From positions 1 to 64,000 of the forward strand of contig JAFGQN010000082.1 in assembly GCA_016935665.1 (NCBI GenBank): a stretch of DNA of 64,000 nt, in the 5' to 3' direction. This document shows positions 21,514 to 62,512 of the stretch, piece after piece. A program made the position numbers and the translations under genes. Every line of letters begins with the position of its first letter. Positions within the stretch are counted from its first letter, which is position 1. Below the pieces are notes generated by a model, which did no database searches, had not been told where the DNA came from, and saw nothing but the letters and a program-made list of their open reading frames with translations. Origin of the DNA: Deltaproteobacteria bacterium. GTDB lineage: Bacteria > Myxococcota_A > Polyangia > JAAYKL01.

Positions 21514-21738
21514 ATGGAAAAAACACTTAGTACAATCGGTAACAGCCTCGGACTCATCATTGAACGGCCGATACTCGATCTTCTCAATATCGATAAAGAA
21601 ACACTGCTCGAAGTGAAAACAGACGGCGAATCTCTGATTATTCGTCCGATACGGGAAGAACGTGGTTCCAGAATACGCAATGCTGCAGAACGGCTGATGG
21701 ATGCCCATGATGACACCCTGCAAAAACTCGCTAAATGA
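21514..21738 (+). CDS. AbrB/MazE-type antitoxin
   Basis: 74 residues. The N-terminal swapped-hairpin fold (MEKTLSTIGNSLGLIIERPI, LLEVKTDGESLIIRP) is typical of AbrB/SpoVT/MazE DNA-binding domains. The C-terminal acidic/helical tail should wrap and neutralise the toxin. It overlaps the doc-like gene by 4 bases (ATGA), follows AAGGAATT, and sits behind a palindromic operator. Confidence 0.88.
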   Translation: MEKTLSTIGNSLGLIIERPILDLLNIDKETLLEVKTDGESLIIRPIREERGSRIRNAAERLMDAHDDTLQKLAK

Positions 21739-22124
21739 CCTTTGAATTTCTAACCCTGGAAGATGCGTTCGACATTCACGCCATGCAGTTGGCGCGTTAC
21801 GGTGGTGGAGAGGGGATTAGAGACCGGGCACTGCTGGAGTCGGCATTGGCGCAGCCGCAGATGACCTTTGATGGTGAATATGTTCATGTTGGCATTTTCT
21901 CCATGGCAGCAGCGTATCTGTTTCATATTGTCAGCAATCATCCATTTGTGGACGGCAATAAGCGCACTGGATTGCTCTGCATCCTTGTATTTCTTGATCT
22001 TAACGGCATCGCTATAGAGCGGAATTCTGACGCACTGTACGATTTGACTATGGCGGTTGCAGAGGGCCGAACCAATAAGGTTGAGGTTGCAGAAGCCCTT
22101 GAGAGCATCGCATCATTGCATTAA
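21735..22124 (+). CDS. doc: Doc-type Fic-fold toxin (death-on-curing family)
   Basis: 129 residues. The Fic/Doc catalytic motif HPFVDGNKRTG is near residue 70, preceded by IRDRALLESALAQPQ, typical of Doc. Known Doc toxins phosphorylate elongation factor Tu and stop translation. The paired AbrB-like antitoxin is directly upstream. The usual Phd partner is replaced by an AbrB/MazE-type protein, a combination that occurs in bacteria. It marks the left part of the island. Confidence 0.93.
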   Translation: MTFEFLTLEDAFDIHAMQLARYGGGEGIRDRALLESALAQPQMTFDGEYVHVGIFSMAAAYLFHIVSNHPFVDGNKRTGLLCILVFLDLNGIAIERNSDALYDLTMAVAEGRTNKVEVAEALESIASLH

Positions 22125-23783: not shown

Positions 23784-23874
23784 ATTTGATATTTAAGCTG
23801 TTGAAAGTGAAGGCTTTGGATTTGTCTCACTAAATTCACCCTTAAAAAGCAAATATAAACGGTTGAGAGATAAA

Positions 23875-25929
23875 ATGTCACCCAAAGAAACAACGCCCGA
23901 ATCAAAACAACAAATTACCAAGTGGCTTGTTAAGCTGGATTCGCTATTTACGTTAAATTGGGATACCGCCGAACGAGATGCTGTGCTGCTGAGGCTTATT
24001 CTCATGAAGTATCTGCTTGACACAGCTTCCAGGCATAACTCAGGCAAAGTAAACATTGATTTCAATCTAGCCGTTTGGCAGAGGTTGGCTGATATACAAC
24101 AAGGGCAAGGAGGTTCTGCATCTCCATCTCTTATTGTTGAAACAGCGCTTAAACCGTTCAGGAAATTTATACCAGACATACTGGAAATATTTCGACCAGT
24201 TTATCCTACTTTGAACCATCTTCCCATTGATATTTTGATGGATGCGGTCAAGGTCCTAGGCGAACAGAATTTCGTAAAATGGGGAACTGAAGAAGCGCCG
24301 ACAAGGTTGGCCTCCATTATCTTCGAACATTTCGCTTCATCCAGAGGTCGAGAATCAGGTGAACACATCTCCCCGATATGTGTGGCTGAACTAATTTCGC
24401 GGATAGCACTACAGGAAAAAGCCAGTCCCTTGAATGTCTATGATTTTGCATGCGGAACGGCAGGTCTACTGTTGTCGATGCAAGAAAACATGGCAGAGAA
24501 CGCAAATTTTTTTGGCCAGGATGTGAATGTCCAGTCTTTGGATTTTGCACGAATCAGAGTGCTGCTGAGCGGGTATAATCTTGAACAGTACAAGCTCGAA
24601 GTTGCTAATATACTAGTGCAAAAGGCTTTTATTGATCAGAAATTCGATGCAATCGTATCTGTTCCACCTTTTGGGCTTAATTGGCAGAATGTTCATTCAG
24701 TATACGAGGGGCCAAAGTTACCAAAGAGCCATGCAGATTTTGCATTTATCCAGCGAGGTTTTGAGCAATTAGCTGACGATGGCGTATTGGTAGTTGCCTT
24801 AACTCATGGTTCGCTTTTTCGAAGTGGGCTTGAAGCGGATTTCCGAAAAATGTTAATCAACGATTTCAATTGTGTCGATGCGATAATAGGGTTGCCAGCG
24901 AACTTATTTTTCAACATTACCATCCCAACATGTTTATGGGTTATTAAAAAGAACCGCAGAGACCCGGATAACATCCTATTTATTGATGCCAGCAACGATT
25001 TTCACCGTGAACGTTGGCAAAATAGACTTCGTGAACAGGACATCGAAAAGATTCTGGAAACTTTGAGCAATCCAGTTAATCAGGAGTTGTATTCAGAAGT
25101 CGTATCCTTAAAACGAATTGGGAAGGAAAAGTACAATTTAAATATCTCGCTGTATGTGGATGAATACCGCAAGGAGGTGCTGAATGAGAAGGTTGATCCC
25201 TTCATTCAGTATCATGCGCTTATCCAGAAATATGTAATGGAAAACAATACGAAGACAATAGTTTATAGAGGCATGGCCGATGCGAGCTGGGAACTTAAAC
25301 CGGGGATAGGCCGCATACAAATTGACGATAGCGAACGCGGTGGTTGTGAAAGAAAGATGTTTGATGAGTTTAAGCAGCAGGCTTTACCCTATTTAGATTT
25401 TACACCTCGAAACGAATGGGAATGGCTTGCAATGGCACAGCATTATGCGCTGCCAACCAGATTGCTGGACTGGACATCCAATCCACTAATTGCATTATAT
25501 TTTGCCGTGGAAGATGAGTCGTCCAAAACAGACGCCGCTGTTCTTCTGTTTTTAGACTCTGAACCACCTCTGGACATTAATGGTCAGGACTCAGAAGGTA
25601 ATGCACTTTACAATGACCCCTTGAATTTGCCCACAGACAAAGAAGCACCCCGATATTCCCCGGCGCACTTGAACCAACGAATTATCGCGCAAAGTAGTTT
25701 ATTTACCGTTCACCCAGTCCCCACGAAACCATTCACATCTGAACAGATTTATAAAGTTGTGATTCCCAAAGCACTTCGCGCTGGTTTGAAGCAGCAACTA
25801 TATAGATACGGTGTGCATGAAGGTACAGTTTATCCAGGATTGGATGGTTTAAGTCGCCAAATTAAATGGTTAAATACCCAGAATTTGTGTGAGTCGAAAC
25901 CAATACCGTCGAAAACAAAGCGGCTTTAA
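23875..25929 (+). CDS. HsdM-like methylase domain fused to an FRG domain
   Basis: 684 residues. Residues about 1-130 resemble the HsdM N-terminal helical domain; about 140-400 resemble the N6-adenine methylase fold. Motif I is DFACGTAG (about 190-197, the family norm is DPACGTGG). Motif IV is SVPPFG (about 262-267) where active enzymes have NPPF/Y, so the catalytic Asn is Val. Residues about 450-665 are an FRG domain: YRGMADASWELKPGIGR, then WEWLAMAQHYALPTRLLDWTSNPLIALYF (shown here only to name it in pieces: MAQHYALPTRLLDWT). FRG domains occur in defence and toxin-like genes and their activity is poorly known. The island context, with an HsdR tail upstream, suggests anti-phage defence. Start ATG 23875; the upstream TTG is less likely. 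Confidence 0.8.
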   Translation: MSPKETTPESKQQITKWLVKLDSLFTLNWDTAERDAVLLRLILMKYLLDTASRHNSGKVNIDFNLAVWQRLADIQQGQGGSASPSLIVETALKPFRKFIPDILEIFRPVYPTLNHLPIDILMDAVKVLGEQNFVKWGTEEAPTRLASIIFEHFASSRGRESGEHISPICVAELISRIALQEKASPLNVYDFACGTAGLLLSMQENMAENANFFGQDVNVQSLDFARIRVLLSGYNLEQYKLEVANILVQKAFIDQKFDAIVSVPPFGLNWQNVHSVYEGPKLPKSHADFAFIQRGFEQLADDGVLVVALTHGSLFRSGLEADFRKMLINDFNCVDAIIGLPANLFFNITIPTCLWVIKKNRRDPDNILFIDASNDFHRERWQNRLREQDIEKILETLSNPVNQELYSEVVSLKRIGKEKYNLNISLYVDEYRKEVLNEKVDPFIQYHALIQKYVMENNTKTIVYRGMADASWELKPGIGRIQIDDSERGGCERKMFDEFKQQALPYLDFTPRNEWEWLAMAQHYALPTRLLDWTSNPLIALYFAVEDESSKTDAAVLLFLDSEPPLDINGQDSEGNALYNDPLNLPTDKEAPRYSPAHLNQRIIAQSSLFTVHPVPTKPFTSEQIYKVVIPKALRAGLKQQLYRYGVHEGTVYPGLDGLSRQIKWLNTQNLCESKPIPSKTKRL

Positions 25930-40247: not shown

Positions 40248-43200
40248 ATGGGTGTGCGGTGTGGAACATTGTTTTTTTTTGTCGCGGTAATATGTGTGGG
40301 GCGCGGTATCGGGGCCCAGAATTCGAATTTGTTAAAGGTGGATGCTACAGAGAAGTCCATGGGCGCAATGGACACGGGCGCGAGGGAAAAGGACACCAGC
40401 GAATCTGCTGCGGGTAAATTTGCTGCGGATCATGACAATATTGATAGCGTCGCCAAAACAAAGAGTGCTGCAGAAAAGGAAATCAAATCCTCTAAATGGG
40501 ATGATGCGTTGGCCAAACAGTCGAGCGCCGAATCCGCAGCTATGGTTTCCCAGGTGGGGGATGAAGCGGCACTTCGTGTAACGGTGGTCCCAAAAAAAGA
40601 GGCATCGCCGAAAATTTCTTCCGACCCGGTTTTGCTGGAAATTGAGTCCCAGCTGCAGCAACTGATATTAGCAAAATTGCCGGCCACCACTGACGTGCAG
40701 GTTTTGTTCGATGTGCCGTTGGACGACGTGGGAGCCATTGGTTTGCGTATTGGTGTGCTTAAGGAAGAGCGGGGCACGCAGCGTTCCAGCAGACAGGAAA
40801 AGGAGAAACGCTTGAGCAATCTGCTAAAAGAGTTTCCGGAACCCCAGATTCCCTCATCGCTGCTTTCAACGCTGGAGATGCCGGTGGCGCCTGAGCCTCC
40901 TGCCGAACCTGTTAAACCAGACGTGCGCAGACCCCGAGGCAAACTGACCGCCAAACGCCCTCGACAGTGGCTGGATGCGTACAATTCATGGCTGGCCTAT
41001 GATGACGCAATTGTGGCCCATGCGCCGCTGATGGAGAAGTACGGTATCGAAATGGAGGTCTATGAAAAAGCACTCGGTGAGTATGAAAATGCGGTGGCAA
41101 TGCGCAATGGAGACCGGGCGACATTTGAGAGCGCAATGGCAAAGAACCAGCAAAAAATAGCTTCGATGCGTAAGGAGCTGAGGCAGGATGTGCATACCAT
41201 CGCGTTGCGTTCCCGGATTCTGAATCTGCGATTGAAGTATCTTGAGGCGTTGCACGAATGGATGTCAGCCATGACAGCCCCCGCCCGGACTGCCCTGGTT
41301 GTATTGAAACAGCGGCGAAAACCCCTGTGGGATACCATGTCCATGGCCAATCGCCTGGACGAAGCACTTGCAACCCTGGCTATTCGTCTTGAGACCCTGG
41401 CCAATCGCGCCGATGCGGGCTCCATGGCGGGATTTCAAATCAAGCTGTCCCAGCTGTCCGGGGATTTGCGTCAGATGGTCGATGCAGTCCAGCAACGACA
41501 GCGGAATCTGCAAACGGAGAAGCAGTCTTTGGTTTCGTTGCGTACCTTGCTGCGGTCCAAGAGCACCGGCGTTCGAAATCTGATATTTTTAAATGTGTTT
41601 CATCCCCGTCGCGACCGGCTGGTGGACGATGCGTTCCTGTCTTATCTTGGCGACATGCGTAAAACAGCAGACAGCTGGTTTTTGCGGGACTTTAGTCTGA
41701 AAAGCGGAAACGCTCTGATTGATTCCATTGGTCAGGCAGTAAAGACGCCTGCAGATGTGACCACGTATAGCGAGGGAATGAAAATTGTTGCCGAGTTGAA
41801 AACGCTCGTTGAGAAACTCGATGTGCAGATTGACGAATTGGGATTGCTGCGCGAGCATCAGAAACAGATATTCAGACGAGAGGCGGTTTCTGTTTTGTCG
41901 AGCCTGGCCACGCAGGAAACCCGCAGTCGCGCTTATTCGTTTTCGCATGAAATTCTGGCGGATCTGAGTTCGGATTTCTATTCGTTGAAAAGCACCGTGC
42001 AGGAATGGTTTACCAATCGCAAAGCCGCAGTCATTAATATGCCCCAAACGGTGCGCACCAAAGGGGGCATTCTGTTGATTGTGCGTGTGTTTGCAGCTAT
42101 TACGCTGCTGATTTTAACGGGGCTTTTGGGAAGACGACTCAGTCATTTTGTGCGTGTGAGTATTCGGCGACTCAGTCGTGGGGCCTTGTTTCGCAATCGC
42201 CCAGGACAACTGATGCGGTATGCAGGGGTTATTGAAGCCATCCTGCCCACTGTGTTGGTGGGGGCCACACTGTATGCCGCGTTGGCCATTATTGGATTTT
42301 CAACTCCGGAGGTGCGGTTCACCGAAGTGGTTCTGCGGTGGCTGATTTTATATCGTCTGGGAGAAAAAGTGCTGATTGGTTTGACCCATCGCGTGTCCAG
42401 AGGGCGACCGGCGTTTATTCCGGTAAGCTCACAGATTTCCGACATGCTTCTGGGGACGTACCGGAAGCTGGGTTTGGTTTGGGCGTTGGCAGCGATTTTA
42501 CTGGAATGGGCCGCGCAGTGGTTTGGCAGCGGCATTGTGCATACTCTTATTGTGCATCTGATGTGGGGGTGGATGTGTATTTGGGGACTCTGGGCATTGA
42601 TGGTGTGGCGCCCGGTATTGGCCGATGCGCTCATTGCTCGTTACACCGTTGGCGCGGGCAGGAACATGTCGGTTGTGGCGATGCGTCTCTTTGGCGCCGG
42701 AAACTGGATGCGACGTCGCTGGAGCGGTGCGCTTTTGACGGCGCCAGTGGCACTGCTTCTTTCGGTGGATTGGCTGTTTCGCCAGATTCGTTACCTGTTG
42801 TATGAAGGTGGCATTGTCACTTTTTTCAGAGCGCGATTCCTGCGTCGACTGGTGAAAACCCAGAAGAAAAATTCAGTGGCACAGGCGGATAGAGCGTTGC
42901 CTGAACTCTACACACGAGCGTTTCCGCTGTATCCCATTTACGACGAGACGGATGCTGTTATTTTGCCGCGTAAAAAGAGTGTGGAAGAAATTTCAAAACA
43001 GATTGAGAAGTGGACACTCACCCAGCAGGACAGTTCGGTGGTGGTGCTGGGTGAAAAAGGGGTGGGCAAAACCACATTGCTGACGCTGCTGGAGCAGGAA
43101 TTGGAAGGAAATGTGATTCGGCACAGCATTGGTCAAAAGTTGAAAAGCGAAAAGGCGCTGGTGGCGGAGCTGGCGGGAGCGTTTGGCATTGAAGACTGCG

Positions 43201-43976
43201 CGCCGGTAGTGGGCGCAGTGGCGGCGTTTCTCAACAAAGGTGAACAGCGCGTGATTCTGGTGGATGAATGTCACAACATGTTTTTACGCACGGTCGATGG
43301 TTATGAGGCATACGAAGCGATGATTCGGCTGGTGAATGTCACCTCTCAAAAAGTGTTCTGGGTGCTGGTATTCAATTCGTTTTCGTTTGCGTTTTTAAAT
43401 GCCAGTAAGAGGCGTCTGCATTACTTCAGAAAGCTGCACACCCTGCCCACATGGTCTAGAGACGATTTGTTTGATTTGATCTCAAAACGCAACCGGCAAA
43501 GTGGTTTTGAAATCGAATTTGATGAAGTGTTGCTGGACGCCAATCGCAGCGCCACTGGCGACTTTGAGGTTATTGAGGGCGCAGAAGGTTTTTTCAGGCT
43601 GCTGTGGGAAAACAGTGGTGGCAATCCCCGCGTGGCCACGTGCCTTTGGCTGGACGCGTTGACCGCAATCGGAGAGTCCAAAATCCGCGTGGGTATTTTT
43701 TCGGAGTCGCTGGCCTGGGAATTGTCGAAGATGGACGTGGAGCTGCTTTACACGTTGGCGGCCATTTGCCAGCATGAAAATCTTTCGGTGTCGGAGCTGC
43801 GGGAAGTACTAAATGTGTCCACTGACTTTGCCAATTTCGCCATTCGGTTTCTATCGGAATACGGTCTGGTGGAGACTAAACATACCGATGCCCGCCGTCA
43901 CACCCTGGCGCCCCGGTTTTATCCGCAGATGATTAAGTTGCTGCGCAGTCATCATCTGCTGTACGAGAAGGAGTAA
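40248..43976 (+). CDS. Large membrane protein: periplasmic coiled domain plus AAA/STAND-type ATPase
   Basis: 1242 residues after AGGAAGGAC. Signal peptide (to about 24), then a ~580-residue helical, coiled-coil-rich periplasmic part similar in feel to the MscK/KefA N-terminal domain. Membrane helices are near 606-630, 655-683, 740-787 and 829-850. The cytoplasmic C terminus is an ATPase: Walker A GEKGVGKT (935-942), Walker B VILVDECHN (Asp1006, Glu1007), GGNPRVA, and a winged-helix-like end (SVSELREVLNVSTDF). The start of an MscS channel gene follows 3 bases after the stop. Inferred role: nucleotide-controlled sensing or gating of that channel. It could also be a stress or defence sensor. I know no named family with this exact layout. 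Confidence 0.75.
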   Translation: MGVRCGTLFFFVAVICVGRGIGAQNSNLLKVDATEKSMGAMDTGAREKDTSESAAGKFAADHDNIDSVAKTKSAAEKEIKSSKWDDALAKQSSAESAAMVSQVGDEAALRVTVVPKKEASPKISSDPVLLEIESQLQQLILAKLPATTDVQVLFDVPLDDVGAIGLRIGVLKEERGTQRSSRQEKEKRLSNLLKEFPEPQIPSSLLSTLEMPVAPEPPAEPVKPDVRRPRGKLTAKRPRQWLDAYNSWLAYDDAIVAHAPLMEKYGIEMEVYEKALGEYENAVAMRNGDRATFESAMAKNQQKIASMRKELRQDVHTIALRSRILNLRLKYLEALHEWMSAMTAPARTALVVLKQRRKPLWDTMSMANRLDEALATLAIRLETLANRADAGSMAGFQIKLSQLSGDLRQMVDAVQQRQRNLQTEKQSLVSLRTLLRSKSTGVRNLIFLNVFHPRRDRLVDDAFLSYLGDMRKTADSWFLRDFSLKSGNALIDSIGQAVKTPADVTTYSEGMKIVAELKTLVEKLDVQIDELGLLREHQKQIFRREAVSVLSSLATQETRSRAYSFSHEILADLSSDFYSLKSTVQEWFTNRKAAVINMPQTVRTKGGILLIVRVFAAITLLILTGLLGRRLSHFVRVSIRRLSRGALFRNRPGQLMRYAGVIEAILPTVLVGATLYAALAIIGFSTPEVRFTEVVLRWLILYRLGEKVLIGLTHRVSRGRPAFIPVSSQISDMLLGTYRKLGLVWALAAILLEWAAQWFGSGIVHTLIVHLMWGWMCIWGLWALMVWRPVLADALIARYTVGAGRNMSVVAMRLFGAGNWMRRRWSGALLTAPVALLLSVDWLFRQIRYLLYEGGIVTFFRARFLRRLVKTQKKNSVAQADRALPELYTRAFPLYPIYDETDAVILPRKKSVEEISKQIEKWTLTQQDSSVVVLGEKGVGKTTLLTLLEQELEGNVIRHSIGQKLKSEKALVAELAGAFGIEDCAPVVGAVAAFLNKGEQRVILVDECHNMFLRTVDGYEAYEAMIRLVNVTSQKVFWVLVFNSFSFAFLNASKRRLHYFRKLHTLPTWSRDDLFDLISKRNRQSGFEIEFDEVLLDANRSATGDFEVIEGAEGFFRLLWENSGGNPRVATCLWLDALTAIGESKIRVGIFSESLAWELSKMDVELLYTLAAICQHENLSVSELREVLNVSTDFANFAIRFLSEYGLVETKHTDARRHTLAPRFYPQMIKLLRSHHLLYEKE

Positions 43977-43979
43977 GCT

Positions 43980-44780
43980 ATGCCCGATGTGGGAACTGGA
44001 AATCTAATGCAATCGTTTAATCCCGGGGCCATTCCATATGCATTGGCGTGGGTTCTGGGGGCATTCATTGCCATGCGCATTACCCGGAAAATCCTGGCGT
44101 CTTTGAGCGAGCGTATGGCAGGGCATCGCTTGACTTTGAAGCAGTTGGACACATTGCTCTCGTTTGTGGTGTACCTTGCGGCGTTTATCCTGGCGCTTAC
44201 CAGTTTGTTTACGTTGTCGTCGGAGGCGTTGCTGGCGCTGTCGGGTACCATCGCGGTGACGGCGGGATTTGCATTAAAGGATGTGGCCGCGTCGTTCATG
44301 GCTGGACTGGCCATTTTGTTCACGCGCCCGTTTCAGGTAGGCGATCGTATTTCCTTTGGCGGCTTCTACGGCGAGGTGAAGGAAATTGGTTTGCGCACGG
44401 TGCGTCTGGTTACACTGGACGACAATCTGGTGTCCATTCCCACCAACAAATTTTTAACCGACCCGGTAGCCAGCGCCAATGCTGGGGAGTTGGATTGCAT
44501 GGTCGTGATGACGTTTTACATTTCGCCGCTGGCCGACCACAGGCGTGCCAGAGAAATAGTGGACGAAGCGGTATTGGCGTCAAAATATCTTTATCTGGGC
44601 AAACCCATGACCACTCTGGTGCGAAATCGGATTTCGGAGCAGGGTCAGTTGCTGGTGGAGATTGTGGCCAAAGCGTATGTATACGATGCACGCCAGGAAA
44701 AACTGTTTGAATCCGATGTCACCGACCGGGTGCTTGATTTTTTCCGCAAAGAATCCCTGTTGCCCGCATGCACGATTTGA
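43980..44780 (+). CDS. MscS-family mechanosensitive channel
   Basis: 266 residues after GAAGGAG. Three membrane helices: about 15-33, 58-78, then the pore-lining TM3-like helix AVTAGFALKDVAASFMAGLAIL with the following FQVGDRISF beta-domain signature. The conserved LRTVRLVTLDDNLVSIPTNKF and a C-terminal alpha/beta domain are present. The protein lacks the long periplasmic domains of MscK and MscM; those resemble the N terminus of the ATPase encoded just upstream. Homoheptamers of MscS-type proteins open under membrane tension; here ATP-dependent control is possible. Confidence 0.93.
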   Translation: MPDVGTGNLMQSFNPGAIPYALAWVLGAFIAMRITRKILASLSERMAGHRLTLKQLDTLLSFVVYLAAFILALTSLFTLSSEALLALSGTIAVTAGFALKDVAASFMAGLAILFTRPFQVGDRISFGGFYGEVKEIGLRTVRLVTLDDNLVSIPTNKFLTDPVASANAGELDCMVVMTFYISPLADHRRAREIVDEAVLASKYLYLGKPMTTLVRNRISEQGQLLVEIVAKAYVYDARQEKLFESDVTDRVLDFFRKESLLPACTI

Positions 44781-58917: not shown

Positions 58918-58970
58918 CGGGGCAAGAGACATGAACTTTGAATTCATTGGACTTACTCAGGGAGGACTCA

Positions 58971-59909
58971 ATGAGTGAGGCGAAAATAAAATTGAATACG
59001 GAGTGGTTGAGCGTTTGTGGCGGATGTCATGTCGCTCTGGTGGACCTGCACGAAAAAATACTGGATGTGATGAAAGTGATAGAGATTCAGCGCTCTCCGC
59101 TGCTCACCGATGAAAAGGGGTATCCGCCGGCGCAAATTGGTCTGATATCCGGTTCGGTGCGCACTTCCCACGATAGGGAAGTGGCCAAAAAAATGCGCGA
59201 ATCCTGCGACAAAATTATCGCGTACGGCACCTGTGCGGTGTACGGGGGCATCCCCGGCGCAGCATTGGCGCACACGGCGGAAGATATTATCGATAGAGTA
59301 TATTTGAACAATCCATCCACCGACTCATCCGCCAAAGTGGTGCCCAATAGGCTGGTTCCCAAAATGGATGCCAAAATCACACCGTTGGATGAAGTGATTG
59401 ATGTGGATTTGTATCTCACCGGTTGTCCACCCCATGCGGCGTATATATTCGATGCACTTATGTCTTTGGTCAACGGCAGGGACCCGAGGGCCAAAACGGA
59501 GAGCGTCTGCGCAAAATGTAAACGGGTCATGAAAAAAACCAATCAGTCGGAAATAAAATCTGTCATGGCTGGCATGCCCGACGAGGAGATGTGCTTTTTG
59601 AGCCAGGGATACATCTGTCTGGGGTCGGTGACTCTCAATCGCTGTGCAGCGCCCTGTCCGCAGAACAATGTGGTGTGCACTGGATGCAATGGCCCCATGC
59701 CACAGATTCTGACGGAGCCCAATCGGGATATTCGAACGGAAATCGCCGCCCGTATGTCGGCCATGACTCAAATACCTTCGACGGATATCATTTCGGAAAT
59801 CGAGAAATCCGCAAAGAGCTACTATGCCTATGCCATGGCGAGCGGCATGATTCGAAACAAACCCACTTTCTTTATTGAAAAGTGGATTGAAGAGGTGGAG
59901 AAAGTCTAA
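58971..59909 (+). CDS. [NiFe]-hydrogenase small (electron-transfer) subunit, Mvh-like
   Basis: 312 residues from the ATG at 58971 after GGGAGGACTC. Cysteines for the proximal cluster are in VCGGCHVALVD (Cys16, Cys19), AYGTCAVYGG and LTGCPPHA; further clusters come from CAKC, CFLSQGYICLG, CAAPCPQNNVVCTGCNGPMP. This is the MvhG/HoxY-type small subunit of group 3 cytoplasmic hydrogenases. No signal peptide, so cytoplasmic. The large subunit starts at the very stop codon (TAATG). Confidence 0.92.
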   Translation: MSEAKIKLNTEWLSVCGGCHVALVDLHEKILDVMKVIEIQRSPLLTDEKGYPPAQIGLISGSVRTSHDREVAKKMRESCDKIIAYGTCAVYGGIPGAALAHTAEDIIDRVYLNNPSTDSSAKVVPNRLVPKMDAKITPLDEVIDVDLYLTGCPPHAAYIFDALMSLVNGRDPRAKTESVCAKCKRVMKKTNQSEIKSVMAGMPDEEMCFLSQGYICLGSVTLNRCAAPCPQNNVVCTGCNGPMPQILTEPNRDIRTEIAARMSAMTQIPSTDIISEIEKSAKSYYAYAMASGMIRNKPTFFIEKWIEEVEKV

Positions 59910-61348
59910 TGGCGCGAACAATTACAATTGATCCGGTTACCCGAATTGAAGGTCACGCCAAAGTGCTCATCGATTTAACCGATGACGATTCGGTGGAATC
60001 CGCCAAACTTATTATTAACGAATTGCGGGGCTTCGAGCGCATCCTGGTGGGGATGGAAGCGGCACAGATGCCTTTGATTACCGCCCGTATTTGCGGTGTC
60101 TGTCCCTCTGCCCATCACCTCGCTGCGGTGAAAGCAGTGGAAGCCGCGTTTGAGGTGGACCCGCCACCTGCGGCCAAATTGCAGCGAGAATTGCTCTATA
60201 TGGGGCATTTTATTCATTCCCATGCGGTTAGTCTGTTTGCCCTTGCCGGGCCGGATATGATTTTTGGTATCACTGGGCAACGTAAAAAACGCGATATTGC
60301 AGCGGTGGTGGAAGCGATGCCCGATGTGGCGAAAAAAGCGCTGCGACTGCGCACATTGGGACAAAAACTCAATGAATTGATTGGTGGCCGCGGCATACAT
60401 CCCGTCACTGCGGTTATCGGTGGAATGTCTACCAGAATGACGTCTGAAAAACTTGGCGAAGCCAAAAAAATGTCGGCCGAAGCGCTCAGCCTGTACAATG
60501 AACTGGCGCCAAAAGTGAAGGAGATGTTCAACAACCTGATCGAGGACATGCCAACTTTGTCGTGTGCCAGTTTCGCGTTGCCGACATCCTACATGGGTAC
60601 CATTAAGAATGGAAAAGTAAATTTTTACGACGGCGATATTCGCATTGTGGATAACACCGGCAAGCAGACGGCTCAATTTAACGTGGCGGATTACACCGAC
60701 TATATTGTGGAAAGACCTGTGGACTATTCCTATACCAAGCCGGTGTTTCTGAAAAAGCCCGTGGGGGACAACGACCTGTATCGCGTGAGTGTGCTGGCGC
60801 GTTTGAATCTCACCGATCAGATGGAAACACCGGGCGCCCAGGCGCATTTGCAGGAGTACAAGGAAAAGTATGGTCCCATTTGCCATCTGACTATTATGCA
60901 GTTGTGGACCCGGCTTATAGAACTGCAGTACGCCTGTGAAAAAGCGGTTGAGATTTGCAACGATTCGGCACTGATGGGGGAGGCCCGGGTGCCCGCCAAA
61001 GTCAAAGCGGGTCGGGGTGTTGGACACGTGGAGGCCCCCAGAGGAACACTTATTCATGAATTCGAGATTGATGACAAAGGCATCGTACGGCGCGCCAATC
61101 TGCTGGTGGCGACTCAACAGAATTACGAAGCCATCAACCGAAGCATACACCAGGTGGTGGATTTACTGGGCGCCGACGATGAATCGCTGCTGGACGGTGT
61201 GGAGTTCGCCATTCGTCTGTACGATCCCTGTTTGTCGTGTTCCACCCATGCCGTGGGACAAATGCCGATTACCATTGATGTTCGTAAAAACGGCAGTCCT
61301 GTGCGGCAAATCGTGAGGAAGGGGGTAAGATGGTTGAAATTCTCATAA
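59909..61348 (+). CDS. [NiFe]-hydrogenase large (catalytic) subunit, group 3c-like
   Basis: 479 residues. Nickel ligands: L1 RICGVCPSAH (Cys62, Cys65) and L2 DPCLSCSTH (Cys441, Cys444). The protein carries a 32-residue tail after His447 that the maturation protease would remove; that protease is encoded four genes down. Sequence resembles the methyl-viologen/F420-nonreducing (Mvh) type, group 3c, but no hdrA or mvhD is here. It splits or makes H2, with electrons handed to the small subunit and ferredoxin. Confidence 0.94.
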   Translation: MARTITIDPVTRIEGHAKVLIDLTDDDSVESAKLIINELRGFERILVGMEAAQMPLITARICGVCPSAHHLAAVKAVEAAFEVDPPPAAKLQRELLYMGHFIHSHAVSLFALAGPDMIFGITGQRKKRDIAAVVEAMPDVAKKALRLRTLGQKLNELIGGRGIHPVTAVIGGMSTRMTSEKLGEAKKMSAEALSLYNELAPKVKEMFNNLIEDMPTLSCASFALPTSYMGTIKNGKVNFYDGDIRIVDNTGKQTAQFNVADYTDYIVERPVDYSYTKPVFLKKPVGDNDLYRVSVLARLNLTDQMETPGAQAHLQEYKEKYGPICHLTIMQLWTRLIELQYACEKAVEICNDSALMGEARVPAKVKAGRGVGHVEAPRGTLIHEFEIDDKGIVRRANLLVATQQNYEAINRSIHQVVDLLGADDESLLDGVEFAIRLYDPCLSCSTHAVGQMPITIDVRKNGSPVRQIVRKGVRWLKFS

Positions 61349-61581
61349 AAAAAGAGGCCTGTCGCGGCTGTCAGATCTGTGCGGAAATCTGTCCCACCGA
61401 TGTGCTGGAGTATAACGCGGCTGAGCAGAAAGTGTTTGTTAAAAATGCGGCTGACTGCATTGCCTGTCTCAGTTGTACATACATTTGCCCGTCTTCGGCC
61501 ATCAGTCAGCAGGATTTTCACAACGTTAAAAACTTTTATCGTGACCTGGAGTTCAGTGTCAAAGCAAAGAGATACCTATGA
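61330..61581 (+). CDS. 2[4Fe-4S] ferredoxin of the hydrogenase operon
   Basis: 83 residues from an ATG 19 bases inside the large-subunit gene (GGAAGGGGGTAAG site). Two CxxCxxCxxxCP motifs: CRGCQICAEICP and CIACLSCTYICP. It would carry electrons to or from the hydrogenase. The partner redox enzyme is not in the window. Confidence 0.93.
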   Translation: MVEILIKKEACRGCQICAEICPTDVLEYNAAEQKVFVKNAADCIACLSCTYICPSSAISQQDFHNVKNFYRDLEFSVKAKRYL

Positions 61582-62033
61582 TTGACTACAACGAAATCGA
61601 GTTGGAAAAAAAGGACTATGAAGCCGCGTTCACCGAAGTGAGTTTTCTGTTTGAAGTGCTCGCTTCCACCGTCAAGGACGTCATTGGCAATTCGGCGCCA
61701 CTGGGTGTGTCCGCGGGTCGATCCATGGCGCGTAAAATACCCGTGAATCTAAAGGAGCCGTCGTTGTCCCGGGTGTTTGATGTAATGAAAAAACATTTTG
61801 AAAACGGTTTCGACTTCAGCACCGATGCGGGGGATGCGGGGGGCGCCATGAATGTGAATACCTGCGTGATTCGCGATATTTGCCGCAACCAGAACGTTGA
61901 ACTGGGAGGGGAGATGTGCAAGATATTCCACTCCTATCTGGGGGGGATGACCGCTCAGCTATCCGGTCGACAGGTGCGTGTCACCCACACCGAGACGGGG
62001 GATACGTGCATGCTGGACATTAAAGTGCGATGA
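61578..62033 (+). CDS. V4R-like domain protein 2 (hydrogenase operon)
   Basis: 151 residues. Landmarks: GVSAGRSMARKI, CVIRDICRNQNVELGGEMCKIFHSYLGGM, VTHTETGDTCMLDI. The pattern (GRSMARK...C..C...GGEMC..FH.Y) resembles the V4R fold. Conserved Cys and His in ICRN and GGEMCKIFH could bind a metal. It overlaps the ferredoxin by 4 bases and the protease by 4 bases, so it belongs to the operon. Confidence 0.65.
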   Translation: MIDYNEIELEKKDYEAAFTEVSFLFEVLASTVKDVIGNSAPLGVSAGRSMARKIPVNLKEPSLSRVFDVMKKHFENGFDFSTDAGDAGGAMNVNTCVIRDICRNQNVELGGEMCKIFHSYLGGMTAQLSGRQVRVTHTETGDTCMLDIKVR

Positions 62034-62512
62034 GTCGTATCAAAGTACTGTGTATCGGCAATGCGCTTGTGGCTGACGACGCCTTCGGCCCTTTGGTCTA
62101 CGAGCACTTCATTGCGAATGGCACGTCACGGTACCCAGACACCGCCTTTTGTCTGCTGGGTGTAGGTGGTTTGGATTTGCTGTCGGAATTTGAAGGGGAA
62201 GACATGGTGGTTGTTGTGGATGCTGTCAGTTCCGGCAGCGAGCCCGGGACCCTGTCGGTTCTTCCCTGGCAACATATTGAAAAAGTGTCCGGCACGCCTG
62301 TTACGTCTCATGATATAGGCCTCGATGAAGTGATGAAAATCGGGCGCATGCTGCAGCCGGAACAAATGCCCAAAGAGGTCATATTTGTGGGTGTGGAAGG
62401 AAAAGATTTCTCCAGCATCGGCCACTCCCTCTCCCCGGAAGTTCAGCACGCCATCCCCAAAGCGTTGCAGGCCATAGAGAATATTTTGGCACAATCAATT
62501 GAAGTATCGTAG
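62030..62512 (+). CDS. Hydrogenase maturation protease (HyaD/HycI/FrhD family)
   Basis: 160 residues. Ni-binding residues of the family are in place: Asp17 (VADDAFG), Asp64 (VVVDAVSSG) and His94 (TSHDIGLDE). Start IKVLCIGNALVADDAFG is typical. It should cut the C-terminal tail of the large subunit after nickel insertion. The hyp genes for Ni-Fe cofactor assembly are not in the window. Confidence 0.94.
   Translation: MSRIKVLCIGNALVADDAFGPLVYEHFIANGTSRYPDTAFCLLGVGGLDLLSEFEGEDMVVVVDAVSSGSEPGTLSVLPWQHIEKVSGTPVTSHDIGLDEVMKIGRMLQPEQMPKEVIFVGVEGKDFSSIGHSLSPEVQHAIPKALQAIENILAQSIEVS

Follow-up and report, generated by a model that had tools for sequence, protein, structure and literature searches.

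The window analysed here, a stretch of 64,000 nucleotides from the genome of a Deltaproteobacteria bacterium, carries two co-directional genes on its plus strand. The first (40248-43976) encodes an ATPase of 1242 amino acids and ends with a TAA stop codon at 43974-43976. The second (43980-44780) encodes an MscS-type channel of 266 amino acids and starts with an ATG at 43980, leaving 3 bases between the genes. Both reading frames are exactly those of the sequence-only reading, which had described a 1242-residue ATPase and a complete MscS gene 3 bases past its stop. A Shine-Dalgarno-like AAGGAG lies inside the last ATPase codons, and the two genes hence look translationally coupled. The features of the locus are:

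40248..40316, plus strand: signal peptide or N-terminal hydrophobic segment, ATPase residues 1-23 (hydropathy peak at residues 5-23; start context)
40317..42059, plus strand: predicted periplasmic region, residues 24-604, about 580 residues (low-complexity linker, then long helices as a helical bundle)
42060..42803, plus strand: membrane domain, residues 605-852 (family-averaged hydropathy, model helices, positively charged cytoplasmic loops)
42975..43652, plus strand: cytoplasmic AAA domain, AAA_22, ORC/Cdc6-like (Pfam, motif census, Foldseek)
43695..43973, plus strand: C-terminal winged-helix-like domain with the conserved tail LLRSHHLL (weak HTH_27, predicted secondary structure, alignments)
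43968-43973, plus strand: AAGGAG, Shine-Dalgarno-like site of the MscS gene (read directly; 6 bases before the MscS ATG)
43980..44780, plus strand: MscS-type channel gene, 266 amino acids, of a dedicated paired-MscS clade (Pfam MS_channel_2nd; clade, signature residues)

Codon statistics strongly favour both frames, which is weak support as both were part of the training set. That the pair is not due to chance follows from the conservation of the pairing in relatives. We also considered a fusion of the two proteins through the stop codon and rejected it as unphysical: the ATPase ends in the cytoplasm, and the N-terminus of MscS should lie in the periplasm.

The genome of the window holds 7 MscS genes in 8.16 Mb. 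Among named relatives, the closest are metagenome-assembled genomes labelled Deltaproteobacteria or Myxococcales. Elsewhere in the window, a lower-GC stretch at about 20-28 kb contains a single reading frame (23863-25926) that joins an N6 DNA methylase domain to an FRG domain, and also a small gene followed by a Fic/Doc-family gene (21514-22121), probably a toxin-antitoxin pair. A probable NiFe hydrogenase cluster is found at 58938-62509, comprising a small subunit of the 20-kDa type (Pfam Oxidored_q6) and what appear to be a large subunit and a maturation protease.

Conservation and spread of the gene pair

A survey of genomes found the pair conserved across the phylum of the window and into the Alphaproteobacteria. 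Within the phylum, 62 of 63 loci with the coiled-coil-type ATPase of the window have an MscS gene on the same strand, at most about 215 bp downstream. At the one exception (L113), the downstream MscS gene is 3.5 kb away and other genes intervene. The 63 loci were picked to span the range of scores and lie for the most part away from contig ends. Based on 81 MscS genes in ten such genomes, the number of such pairings expected by chance in the whole set is about 0.04. The loci are related by descent and do not represent 63 independent events, and the pair is kept even at loci with as little as about 15-20% sequence identity to the window. Downstream reading frames other than MscS, initially read at L027, L028 and L035, were discarded as antisense artefacts of GC-rich DNA, since tblastn finds an MscS match in each; at L026 the MscS frame is broken and the tblastn match is present. 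Apart from MscS, any one flanking gene is shared by at most 7 of the 63 loci.

When 379 genomes of the phylum were searched with a membrane-plus-AAA profile, 126 proved to have relatives of either architecture (coiled-coil type, or the exchanger type described below). Counting profile rows below 1e-49, the coiled-coil type is present in about 98 genomes. Carriage is patchy within the window's own family, with the coiled-coil type in 4 of the 14 genomes searched, the window's included, and the exchanger type in one more. Outside the phylum, where the search took in plasmid, phage and viral records together with a single pattern scan of genome contigs, ATPase and MscS lie together on plasmid pLA3 of Novosphingobium pentaromativorans (profile match 8.5e-112), and a plasmid of Caulobacter sp. 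NIBR2454 carries the ATPase with two tandem MscS genes (L180:7292-9132). Two tandem MscS genes also stand behind the ATPase in L100 (G198); some systems thus carry two channels.

The two genes have diverged together. ATPase distances and MscS distances correlate with r = 0.86 over 59 loci, a value that none of 2000 permutations reached and to which vertical descent contributes. A degenerate second locus in a genome of the same genus (L037/L140, G001:C454) retains only a C-terminal piece of the ATPase and pieces of MscS, so that both genes have decayed jointly at one place.

Above cut-off, family annotation of the pair returned generic AAA and MS_channel models only, and within the libraries searched the ATPase does not belong to an already described family. 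In the openly accessible literature searched, we found no paper on such an ATPase-MscS pair.

Periplasmic and membrane parts of the ATPase

The N-terminal half of the ATPase was examined by structure prediction and hydropathy. Modelled alone, residues 120-875 gave an AlphaFold2 mean pLDDT of 81 and a pTM of 0.49. For residues 120-1242 the values were 74.6 and 0.35, and the relative placement of the domains in that model is unreliable. Between residues 618 and 836, the family-averaged hydropathy has six peaks. Hydropathy, model helices and loop charges support about five membrane helices (near 606-623, 665-682, 694-711, 741-758 and 767-784), plus a hydrophobic helix at 825-852, in agreement with the several membrane helices read earlier. 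A topology with five membrane helices, the periplasmic domain outside, the AAA module inside and the hydrophobic helix before it fits both the charge distribution and the model. No Pfam family matched the periplasmic region in the 49 family N-termini scanned, and no direct relatives of the whole ATPase protein were found in the PDB.

The periplasmic region had been called MscK-like, and as far as layout is concerned this holds. In MscK, a single chain comprises the channel, a periplasmic domain of about 500 residues and eleven membrane helices, and MscK requires external K+ as well as tension (PMC9653487). MscK and MscM share with the ATPase N-terminal half the order of a large periplasmic helical region and then a membrane bundle. 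In the window pair, by contrast, the channel is a separate protein, an AAA domain lies on the cytoplasmic side, and the membrane helices are fewer.

The pair might be read as a split MscK, in which the periplasmic and membrane parts of the ATPase descend from the MscK sensor half or replace it structurally, MscS is the channel half, and the AAA module was added. When the N-terminal half was compared by Foldseek with 350,542 chains, E. coli MscK (7uw5) was indeed the best match, over 535 columns, and the succession of periplasmic bundle, membrane bundle and MscS-type channel agrees with that described for MscK (PMC9653487). The match itself is, however, non-significant (E = 0.045) with a low TM-score of 0.15, and sequence models do not link the two proteins. 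A profile search of the PDB for homology to MscK gave nothing significant, and hhalign to EcMscK reached a probability of 3-5% (0.2% in the reversed control). The models MscS_porin (PF12795) and MscS_TM (PF12794) match none of 49 family N-termini, and the same models do match EcMscK and a genuine MscK (L182) in the genome of a relative. Also, MscK has eight membrane helices ahead of its MscS-like core, and the ATPase has about five. As the domain models that define the MscK family are unmatched, we do not count the ATPase as a member and regard it as MscK-like in layout only; descent from, or structural replacement of, an MscK sensor half seems unlikely to us.

The AAA module and its winged helix

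The cytoplasmic part had been described as an AAA/STAND-like ATPase with a winged-helix end. Its AAA identity is borne out by Pfam AAA_22 at residues 927-1041 (4.8e-10, 40.3 bits against a cut-off of 27) and by the motifs GEKGVGKT (Walker A, 935), ILVDE (Walker B, 1003) and GGNPR (sensor-2, 1124). The proteins that the ATPase family profile matches best are likewise P-loop ATPases, of the AAA and other kinds. In the Foldseek comparison, the AAA part comes closest to ORC/Cdc6 chains that combine AAA and a winged helix-turn-helix, with MuB and Apaf-1 also significant. This fold match extends to the winged helix, for which the Pfam matches are sub-threshold (HTH_27 0.041, TrmB 0.073). The STAND label fared less well, as the curated families nSTAND_NTPase5, nSTAND3 and NACHT all stayed under their Pfam cut-offs. 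With ORC/Cdc6, the AAA_22-like MuB/TnsC and the STAND protein Apaf-1, the window ATPase shares an AAA fold followed by a winged helix, a GNP sensor-2 and probably a switch-like use of the nucleotide. It differs from them in being tethered to the membrane by its periplasmic and membrane N-terminus and in being genetically tied to a channel.

Among 66 coiled-coil-type ATPases, Walker A is intact in 56 and changed in 10. Given these changes, ATP binding may not be essential in every member. The Walker B pattern with the catalytic glutamate, D-E, occurs in only 7 of the 66, the commonest being D-D (34). A mostly intact Walker A together with a rare D-E favours a nucleotide-binding switch with slow turnover rather than a motor. 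The Walker B of the window ATPase itself is D-E, and because it carries the catalytic glutamate, true hydrolysis and a motor-like role are possible for this member.

AAA proteins commonly remodel membrane proteins, and a chaperone or assembly and quality-control factor, whose ATPase motor inserts, extracts or remodels its MscS, might be envisaged here, all the more as the window Walker B is complete. Such a motor is, however, difficult to reconcile with the loss of the catalytic glutamate pattern in most members. It would also leave the large periplasmic domain unexplained, and other MscS channels assemble without such a partner. We hence consider a chaperone role very unlikely.

The paired MscS channel

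The channel of the window matches MS_channel_2nd with 3.6e-18 (65.9 bits against a curated cut-off of 20.2). Hydropathy peaks at residues 16-34, 59-77 and 96-114 mark three membrane helices, and the TM3 alignment indicates a pore-lining TM3 that leads into the beta-domain. The three membrane helices, the MS_channel_2nd beta-domain and the overall length are all shared with MscS.

In other respects the paired channels stand apart. They form one clade (support 0.95) separate from the other MscS of the same genomes; the tips labelled 'other' within it are duplicate fetches of paired copies and one fragment of a frameshifted copy. R123, Y130, V141, Y232 and E239 are among the residues near-invariant in paired MscS and rare in other MscS, and, unlike other MscS, paired channels nearly always stand behind the ATPase gene. 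The beta-domain model was matched by all 32 paired MscS scanned and the standard C-terminal domain (PF21082) by only 6 of the 32, so that the cytoplasmic part must be regarded as divergent. In the window MscS, PF21082 is unmatched and the C-terminal region is present but divergent.

According to the sequence-only reading, the ATPase would supply a periplasmic sensor part that this short MscS lacks. This assumption is not needed: E. coli MscS, likewise limited to three membrane helices, gates without a partner. The ATPase partner therefore adds something to MscS and does not restore a missing part.

The winged helix could also point to a membrane-tethered transcription regulator, which would bind DNA and regulate how strongly the channel gene is expressed, with no contact to the channel itself. 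ORC/Cdc6-type proteins with AAA and winged helix do bind DNA, and the C-terminal region resembles such a domain, if only through sub-threshold matches. Against this, the two genes appear to be transcribed together, the regulator preceding the channel, and the invariant residues of paired MscS are expected for protein contact, not for transcriptional control. We regard a purely transcriptional role as highly improbable.

Sister architectures

The AAA module with its winged helix is also found on other N-termini. At 13 loci (L033, L038-L040, L121-L129), proteins of 1370-1600 residues feature many N-terminal membrane helices and then a homologous module; in the one protein tested, Pfam identified this N-terminus as Na_H_Exchanger. 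An MscS-like domain follows within about 750 bp downstream in 10 of the 13 loci and at about 2 kb in one. Most of these loci are preceded by a second transporter-like gene, and at one of them (L039) TrkA- and TrkH-like genes, read from the sequence, precede the exchanger-type gene. Exchanger-type proteins thus resemble the window pair in their homologous module and in the MscS-like gene that usually follows. They differ in their exchanger membrane part, in a mostly degenerate Walker A and in an MscS partner that belongs to a clade of its own (support 0.89, with one other MscS inside). A third architecture was seen once: at L130:5845-7966, a soluble AAA-winged-helix protein of 415 amino acids without a membrane part is directly followed by MscS. 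The exchanger fusion, the MscS-like neighbours and the Trk-like genes suggest a role in ion and osmotic homeostasis.

The sister architecture also bears on the earlier suggestion of a pore-type defence system. In such a defence or abortive-infection system, a STAND/AAA-like ATPase would detect phage or damage, open the MscS pore and depolarise the cell. An AAA/STAND-like switch adjoining a pore is a known defence layout, and patchy carriage (126 of 379 genomes) would suit it. However, PADLOC gave no specific full-length match for the ATPase, and its matches are to generic AAA P-loops, the best being DolB over 81 residues around the P-loop (E = 1.9e-4). The pair was not found in the phage records and viral contigs searched, and its loci show no recurrent neighbours besides MscS, defence genes included. 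Furthermore, the predicted sensor faces the periplasm, evolution of the pair is mostly co-divergent, and the sister architecture carries an ion exchanger. We thus give very little credence to a defence function.

Proposed mechanism and implications

The linkage of both genes in nearly every genome examined suggests an undescribed bacterial valve under ATP control. With some confidence, we propose that the pair consists of a small MscS channel and a dedicated ATP-binding regulator, which would sense the periplasm and tune channel opening through a nucleotide switch. The gene pairing, the clade specificity, the co-divergence, the domain layout and the intact Walker A of most members are observed, and from them we infer the complex of the two proteins, the direction of control, the gating, the signal and the role. 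The helical periplasmic domain of the ATPase might sense the state of the envelope, be it stretch, a solute or ion, or cell-wall spacing. This information would be relayed through the about five membrane helices to the cytoplasmic AAA module, which would bind ATP and act as a switch rather than a motor. Through contact with the paired MscS at its specialised cytoplasmic part, this switch could set the ease of opening. Release of solutes or ions would then depend jointly on membrane tension and ATP, and the pair probably serves osmotic or ion homeostasis.

In the current understanding, MscS channels are valves that open mainly in response to membrane tension. More tentatively, the window pair may be the first case of a mechanosensitive channel that has an ATP-binding subunit of its own; membrane tension, a periplasmic sensor and an ORC/Cdc6-like module, through its nucleotide state, would jointly set the opening. 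The pair might also be one member of a broader group of systems, with ion exchangers and MscS-like channels both controlled by this AAA module. If the conserved ATP-binding partner acts as proposed, bacteria can put an MscS valve under metabolic and periplasmic control. Walker A mutants and partner swaps would then offer a genetic way to study how tension gating is adjusted by accessory proteins. That ion exchangers carry this switch module too, as a fusion, is a hint that ion flux in these bacteria may be regulated by a general module of this kind.
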